Assembly: GCA_030635995.1 (NCBI GenBank)
Contig: DAOVXU010000002.1
Span: 1-33,586 of the forward strand
DNA length: 33,586 nt
Source of the DNA: Arcobacter sp.
Lineage (GTDB): Bacteria > Campylobacterota > Campylobacteria > Campylobacterales > Arcobacteraceae
Direction of reading: 5' to 3'
Position numbers and translations under genes: made by a program. This document shows positions 21,739-30,255 of this stretch, one piece after another. Below the pieces are notes generated by a model. The model saw only the letters and a list, made by a program, of their open reading frames with translations, made no database searches and was not told the DNA's origin. The stretch's first letter is position 1; each line of letters opens with the position of its first letter.

Positions 21739-22983
21739 ATGATAGATAATAAACTTTTACAAAAAGATTTTACTACAGTTGCTAGTGCCTTAGAGAAAAA
21801 AGGCGTAAGTACAACTTTACTAGAAGAGCTTAAAAATGATGTTTTGGCAACAAAATTAAAACGGCAAAGTATGGAGGAGATACAAGCAAAACAAAATGCT
21901 TTATCATCTTAATTTGGTTTATATAAAAAAGAGGGGAAAGATATAGCTCCTTTAAAGCAAGAGATAGATGAACTAAAAAAACAAAAACAACTAATAGAAG
22001 AAGAGGTTAGAACTCTTGAAGAGGGCTTAAATGATATTATGATGGGGATTCCAAATCTTCCAGATGATAATGTCCCTTTAGGGGAGAGTGAAGATGATAA
22101 TATTGTGATTAAAACTGTTGGAACTCCTAAAGAATTTAACTTTATACCAAAAGAGCATTGGGATATAGGTGAGAGTACTGGTATCATTGATTTTACAAGA
22201 GGTGTAAAAGTAGCAAAAAGTAGATTTGCAGCACTTAAGGGAATTGGAGCTAGACTTGAGAGAGCTTTAATCAATTACTTTTTAGATTTTAATCGTGAGA
22301 GAGGATTTGAGGAGTGGTATGTTCCATTTATGGCAAATTCAAATACTTTAAGAGGAACTGGGCAGTTACCAAAGTTTGAAGATGATCTATTTAAAATTGA
22401 GGGTGAAGACTTATATTTAATCCCTACTGCTGAAGTGAGTTTAACAAATTTGTTTAATGATGAGATAGTACCACAAAATGAGTTGCCAATGCTTTTAACA
22501 TCTTATACACCTTGTTTTAGAAAAGAAGCAGGAAGTGCAGGAAGAGATACAAGAGGGATAATTAGACAACATCAATTTGATAAAGTAGAGATGGTTGCTA
22601 TTACAAAACAAGAGCAGTCCGAAGAAGTATTTAAAAAGATGGTTGAATGTGCTAGTGATCTATTAACTTCATTAGAGTTACCACATCAAGTTGTACAACT
22701 TTGTACAGGAGATTTGGGATTTTCTGCAGCTACAACGATTGATCTTGAAGTGTGGTTACCTGGACAAGGACAATATAGAGAAATTTCATCAATTTCAAAC
22801 ACAAGGGATTTCCAAGCTAGACGAGCAAAAATAAGATATAAAGATGGTAAGAAGAATATGTTATGCCATACATTAAATGGCTCATCACTTGCAGTTGGAA
22901 GAACATTAGTAGCTATTATAGAAAATAATCAAAATGAAGATGGTAGTATTACTGTACCTTCTGTATTACAGAAGTATATGTAG
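21739..22983 (+). pseudogene. serS: Seryl-tRNA synthetase gene interrupted by an in-frame stop
   Basis: SerRS charges tRNA-Ser and is essential. Reading from ATG 21739 gives MIDNKLLQKDFTTVASALEK and 37 further residues, then TAA at 21910-21912 (codon 58), then the same frame continues without a further stop to 22983, 415 codons including the TAA. The remainder has all the expected features: the second coiled-coil helix, [21 protein letters not shown], motif 2 ([15 protein letters not shown]) and motif 3 ([10 protein letters not shown]). The stop lies in the tip region of the N-terminal coiled-coil arm that holds the tRNA, at a position variable between species. The nearest in-frame ATG after it (22039, residue 101) would remove the whole arm and has no good ribosome-binding site. 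Options are a true pseudogene with another serS elsewhere, read-through, or a sequence error. Confidence 0.85.
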
Positions 22984-29511: not shown

Positions 29512-29757
29512 ATGATTACAATAGAAATAATTACAGAGTTTTTAGGTTGGTGTTCAATAATTAATATAGGGATGTTAATGTTATCTGCAATATTACTAGT
29601 GTTATTTAATGATACTATATTAAATATTCATATTAAAATGTTTAATTTAGATAAAAAATATTTGCAACAAACATATTTTAAATATTTAGCACAATACAAA
29701 ATTATAATTATAATATTTAATATTGTTCCATATTTTGTTCTAAAAATAATAGTTTAA
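29512..29757 (+). CDS. Small membrane protein, DUF6868-like
   Basis: This 81-residue protein has two hydrophobic segments (about 12-32 and 62-79). The opening ITEFLGWCSIINIGMLM and the end FNIVPYFVLKII resemble, from memory, the DUF6868 family of small proteobacterial membrane proteins, whose function is unknown. It follows the J-domain gene by 31 bases. The family call is moderate. Confidence 0.65.
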   Translation: MITIEIITEFLGWCSIINIGMLMLSAILLVLFNDTILNIHIKMFNLDKKYLQQTYFKYLAQYKIIIIIFNIVPYFVLKIIV

Positions 29758-29908: not shown

Positions 29909-29914
29909 GATAAT
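29909..29914 (+). promoter_or_regulatory. Candidate -10 box of the riboswitch transcript
   Basis: GATAAT, preceded by T to give an extended TGATAAT, stands about 15 bases before the riboswitch P1 helix, which would place transcript start near 29921. The upstream stretch 29758-29900 holds no gene: it is AT-rich with related short words (ATAAGCTTAA near 29884, ACAAGCTTAA near 29923). Placement fits, but the box alone is weak evidence. Confidence 0.45.
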
Positions 29915-29929
29915 ATTTTCATACAAGCT

Positions 29930-30012
29930 TAATTGTTAAAGCCAAACTTATCGCGAGGTAAGGACGGAAAGCTACGGGTCTTAAATTTAAGATAGCCGAG
30001 TTGTCTTGATTA
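29930..30012 (+). ncRNA. Class I cyclic-di-GMP riboswitch (GEMM-I) aptamer
   Basis: The sequence follows the GEMM-I plan. P1 can form between TAATTG (29930-29935) and TTGATTA (30006-30012). GCCAAAC (29941-29947) leads into P2 (29947-29952 with 29957-29962), closed by the GNRA tetraloop GCGA (29953-29956). Next come the conserved joining segment GACGGAAAGC (29963-29972), a P3 arm with CGGGTC and the tetraloop-receptor side GATAGCCG, and the closing GAGTTGTC. The long-range C-G pair of the family (C29965 with G29995) is kept. Relative to the well-known Vibrio Vc2 aptamer there are two linked changes: the G-C pair next to the ligand is C29942-G29967. It should control the 60-residue gene downstream. 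No search was run. Confidence 0.85.
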
Positions 30013-30040
30013 TATTCAATATTTATGCGACTTGACTATT

Positions 30041-30063
30041 CTAAATTTTGACCTAAAATTTAG
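30041..30063 (+). promoter_or_regulatory. Hairpin reaching the ribosome-binding site (riboswitch expression platform)
   Basis: CTAAATTTT (30041-30049) and AAAATTTAG (30055-30063) are perfectly complementary with a 5-base loop. The last bases of the hairpin are the first of the Shine-Dalgarno AGGAG (30062-30066), which is 6 bases before the ATG at 30073. No run of T follows, so control of translation rather than of termination is the likelier mode. Confidence 0.6.
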
Positions 30064-30072
30064 GAGTAAATT

Positions 30073-30255
30073 ATGATTAATCAACAAGAAATAAATTTCT
30101 TTAATTCAAATTCTAAGTCATCAACATACATCAATAGAGATAAAAAAGATTGCAACTGGAGTTTTTCAAAAAAGAATATAAATAATAGTAATAATATATT
30201 TAGTATAGTCACAATATTTGTATTTACAATATCAATAATAGCCTATATAATATAG
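30073..30255 (+). CDS. 60-residue tail-anchored protein under riboswitch control
   Basis: The protein has an Asn/Ser/Lys-rich hydrophilic part (residues 1-40) with one Cys (residue 27) and a single hydrophobic segment at the very C-terminus (residues ~42-60, IFSIVTIFVFTISIIAYII). That is the layout of a C-terminally anchored membrane protein. AGGAG and ATG spacing are good, and the riboswitch upstream argues that it is a real gene. I do not recognise a family. It is followed 13 bases later by a hairpin shared with the convergent chemoreceptor gene, so it is probably a single-gene unit. Confidence 0.65.
   Translation: MINQQEINFFNSNSKSSTYINRDKKDCNWSFSKKNINNSNNIFSIVTIFVFTISIIAYII

Follow-up and report, generated by a model that had tools for sequence, protein, structure and literature searches.

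The window, by which we mean the whole stretch of DNA analyzed here (33,586 nucleotides), carries a single RNA above the Rfam curated cut-offs when scanned in its entirety with cmscan, and this RNA is confirmed as a cyclic-di-GMP (c-di-GMP) class I riboswitch. To judge from predicted folding of the leader, it probably acts in cis as a translational OFF switch on one small gene, which encodes a membrane protein of 60 amino acids. The computed results are the identity of the aptamer, its covarying helices, two mutually exclusive predicted folds of the leader and, between the two closest homologues, constraint on the protein. The riboswitch class is already known and widespread, and the aptamer is an ordinary find, a well-supported added member. 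Its main elements are:

29932-30009, forward strand: c-di-GMP class I riboswitch aptamer (RF03167, RF01051, covariation in 23 family aptamers)
29942-29967, forward strand: helix P2 with a GCGA (GNRA) tetraloop at 29953-29956 (Rfam match, alignment, covariation)
29970-30002, forward strand: helix P3, with the receptor side for the tetraloop and the bulged G83 at 29995 (Rfam match, alignment, covariation)

The best Rfam match of the window is RF03167 (c-di-GMP-I-GGC) at 29932-30009 on the forward strand, with 62.9 bits (E = 9.4e-13) over the full length of the model (1-80); RF01051 (c-di-GMP-I) matches at 29931-30008 with 65.4 bits. Both scores exceed the curated cut-offs, which are 59 bits for RF03167 and 35 bits for RF01051. 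An earlier note on this DNA had placed the RNA in the GEMM-I class and proposed a search with RF01051 as the check; the two scores uphold the assignment. The extent then given (29930-30012) and the strand agree with the match to within a few bases, and all the landmarks listed are in place: the GNRA loop, GACGGAAAGC at 29963-29972, the receptor side of P3 and the closing GTT. We found no functional distinction of the RF03167 subfamily in the literature searched, and a covariance-model search of the 1.78-Mb, 267-contig genome found no second copy above cut-off.

In an alignment of 23 aptamers from the family, standard pairs fill 96.1% of pair cells and ten pairs have changed on both sides. None of 500 shuffles matched this pairing quality, and displacing the partners by one to three columns left only 27-51% of the cells paired. 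The earlier note had proposed a test of covariation across P1-P3. Covariation is borne out for P2 and P3, both preserved by compensatory change. P1 is a weak helix: G14-C93, the sole P1 pair examined, is present in the window and is paired in only 52% of family cells. Equivalents of the tetraloop receptor pairs C59-G79 and U60-A78 are present as well. A chance match is ruled out by the two covariance models together with the covariation.

The following elements surround the aptamer in the proposed switch:

29909-29914, forward strand: candidate -10 promoter element, GATAAT, immediately before the aptamer (a guess, read by eye)
30027-30053, forward strand: predicted anti-aptamer segment, partner of P3 and the J3-1 strand when no ligand is bound (minimum free energy fold)
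30041-30063, forward strand: predicted hairpin CTAAATTTT / AAAATTTAG, burying the Shine-Dalgarno sequence in the locked-aptamer fold (constrained folding)
30062-30066, forward strand: Shine-Dalgarno sequence AGGAG, 7 bases before the ATG at 30073 (sequence)
30073-30255, forward strand: small protein of 60 amino acids with a C-terminal transmembrane segment and a Y..R....W.WSF.K-like motif (homologues, dN/dS, hydrophobicity)

A promoter scan gave no significant forward-strand site at 29909-29914. In its minimum free energy fold the free leader forms a long hairpin, with 30027-30053 pairing to P3 and the J3-1 strand. When the aptamer is locked by constrained folding, 30041-30049 pairs with 30055-30063 instead, and the probability that the Shine-Dalgarno sequence is unpaired falls from 0.73 to 0.03, in a thermodynamic treatment that ignores co-transcriptional folding and leaves out the ligand energy. 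Shuffling the linker 300 times with dinucleotides preserved never produced so extreme a fall in accessibility. The anti-aptamer core, CRACTT, is common to all four homologous leaders, that of the window included, and the other three shift weakly in the OFF direction.

One can envision the following sequence of events. At low c-di-GMP, both strands of P3 and the J3-1 strand would pair with 30027-30053, the Shine-Dalgarno sequence would be mostly exposed and the membrane protein would be made. At high c-di-GMP the aptamer would be locked, and the downstream segment, once freed, would pair with 30055-30063, burying the Shine-Dalgarno sequence and stopping translation. Production of the protein would thus belong to cells low in c-di-GMP, which are typically motile. 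That the ligand binds, which way the switch works and what the protein does are what we infer here, and direction is the least certain step because it is mixed over 26 family leaders and because one homologous leader, L060, carries a terminator-like hairpin compatible with an ON switch.

An ON switch would use the same riboswitch and ligand, with binding preventing a long anti-aptamer hairpin that stops transcription or translation. In L060 the stem AGTTGCA/TGCAACT, whose 5' arm lies inside the aptamer, is followed by TTGATTTTTTT; the unliganded leader of the window also favors a long hairpin there, and class I is known to include switches of both kinds, ON and OFF (PMC9262584). However, neither an intrinsic terminator nor any terminator-like site was found in the window, where the stem lacks a following run of T, and locking the aptamer makes the Shine-Dalgarno sequence less accessible, not more. 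We consider an ON switch possible but rather unlikely.

The gene that the favored OFF switch would control encodes a protein with a hydrophobic C-terminus and no match to a Pfam family above cut-off. A profile search yielded convincing homologues in just 4 of the 104 family genomes, and each of these has the gene immediately after the riboswitch. Since those four homologues were the basis of the profile, the search tests whether others appear; three of them were first spotted via the riboswitch, to which the profile search itself is blind. Past these true matches, profile and protein searches returned weak ones only, mostly interrupted by stops or lying inside longer unrelated frames. The dN/dS ratio is 0.27 in the closest homologue pair, more distant comparisons being near saturation, and this value and the presence of homologues in the same place rule out the small ORF as noise. 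The link between riboswitch and small membrane protein, suggested when the RNA was first noticed, is strengthened by the position of the homologues and by the hydrophobic C-terminus. A small membrane-protein family seen, within the sampled family, only behind this riboswitch is a good candidate to be an effector under c-di-GMP control.

The ligand pocket was surveyed in an alignment, made with the family model, of 92 distinct aptamers: that of the window plus 91 from other families of the order. Positions follow the numbering of Vc2 from Vibrio cholerae, taken from PMC3764141 and PMC4744006 and mapped onto the window by sequence:

29941, forward strand: ligand-contact base G20, kept (G in all 92 aptamers surveyed)
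29968-29970, forward strand: J2-3 adenines A47-A49 (A in 92 of 92 aptamers; numbering from PMC3764141)
30004, forward strand: ligand-contact position C92, occupied by U (shared with 3 of 91 aptamers of other families)

The window aptamer has the same three-helix fold, GNRA loop and receptor as Vc2 (GEMM-I, RF01051). It keeps the conserved J2-3 adenines, including A47, the base between the ligand bases (A29968), and the G20, C44 (C29965) and G83 (G29995) positions; it differs from Vc2 in having U for C at 92, a weak P1 and an uncharacterised small membrane protein as its target. The same U stands against the consensus C at model position 75 of RF03167. The four aptamers with U92 (window, L130, L143 and L167) come from four different families of the order, the last three being further natural C92U aptamers. 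By contrast, within the window's own family the other 27 aptamers all have C there, and the GTT is followed by GT in the window (30003-30004) versus GC or AC in all 27. Neither this change nor a switching mechanism figured in the earlier note. Judged by sequence, U92 is a minority variant within the riboswitch family, its carriers scoring as members. C92 is highly conserved without being strictly required, conservation being lower at G20 and C92 than at A47 (PMC9049102), and the recurrent C92U change offers a natural test of how much variation a ligand-contact base tolerates. G20 contacts one ligand guanine and C92 the other; U30004 stands where the C is expected, which could weaken binding, and this U is also compatible with a possible U-G pair in the anti-aptamer stem.

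The most likely ligand is c-di-GMP, because G20 is kept, 17 GGDEF and 5 EAL hits occur in the genome, and searches for DAC, SMODS and Hypr-type enzymes came back empty. Wherever the active site of a GGDEF domain can be recognized, it retains the guanine-reading aspartate, and none has the Hypr-type serine (PMC7288161), the search for this residue and for DAC and SMODS domains having been made in a fragmented genome.

U92 might instead mark a decaying aptamer, whose binding C92U has weakened and whose leader is unresponsive at physiological c-di-GMP. Its absence from the 27 other family aptamers fits such decay, as does the lack of an RF03167 copy (E up to 0.001) in the seven other sampled genomes of the genus, and mutated ligand contacts in Vc2 raise the dissociation constant (PMC9049102). 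Yet all other conserved pocket and tertiary positions are kept, the same change recurs in three other families and the switching fold is far from random. Vc2 with C92U still binds c-di-GMP. We regard decay as improbable.

Least probable of all is a G20/U92 pocket whose preference has moved to a mixed cyclic dinucleotide, for example 3',3'-cGAMP, and through which the cell would read a second messenger other than c-di-GMP: the Vc2 G20A/C92U double mutant, which binds c-di-AMP (PMC7288161, PMC9049102), indicates that U at 92 can suit adenine, but the change reported to allow cGAMP binding is that at position 20 (PMC7288161), where the window has G (G29941), not A, and the enzyme survey described above speaks against it too. 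The 3',3'-cGAMP riboswitches, rare variants of c-di-GMP-I, share the overall fold of the window RNA but have A at position 20, and the genome search turned up no GGDEF of the Hypr type. A cGAMP or c-di-AMP sensor is therefore not favored.

Immediately upstream of the c-di-GMP riboswitch, on the same strand, lies a gene for a DUF6868 protein (29512-29757), itself preceded by genes for a J-domain protein and a sensor kinase. The RNA had been described as beside a motility region; the distance of about 9 kb to the flagellar cluster is correct, but other genes lie between and the cluster is not within the regulated unit. The argument from a motility neighborhood is weak, although other family members do carry the riboswitch before flagellin and pilin genes. 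The flhA gene of the contig is closest to those of same-genus genomes (77 to 83% identity), which rules out a mis-binned contig. Between the flagellar genes and the sensor kinases, 22039-22983 encodes a 314-amino-acid ORF whose sole Pfam match is a class II tRNA synthetase core.

Many genomes of the window's order carry class I c-di-GMP riboswitches: RF01051 scores above cut-off in 75 of 399 sampled genomes, some with up to ten copies, and RF03167 has matches (E up to 0.001) in 19 of 104 family genomes. No paper joining a c-di-GMP riboswitch with Campylobacterota or Arcobacter was found in the literature searched. The exact core pattern also occurs in records of named Arcobacteraceae, Hydrogenimonas, Sulfurovum, Nitratifractor, Desulfobacterota and Methylophaga, and two of the named relatives match loci of the same family as the window; judged by these relatives, the host is Arcobacteraceae-like. 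With gene names read from the sequences, other family copies precede flagellin, two further kinds of putative small membrane protein, or a putative Flp-type pilin and prepilin peptidase. The last arrangement (L044, L047, L048, L050, L062 and L067) suggests c-di-GMP control of pili in the genera concerned. In genus g9 (L054-L059) a different small membrane protein family follows the riboswitch, and in L054, L055, L057 and L058 predicted hairpins seem to mask the Shine-Dalgarno sequence. Eight to ten class I aptamers per genome are present in G130, G284, G302 and G380 (genus g64) and in G308 (g84), several of them tandem or head to head. Genome G422 has three aptamers within about 0.5 kb (L046, L064 and L066): one faces a flagellin-like gene and stands back to back with two tandem aptamers, and the tandem pair faces a 133-amino-acid protein with a signal-like N-terminus.
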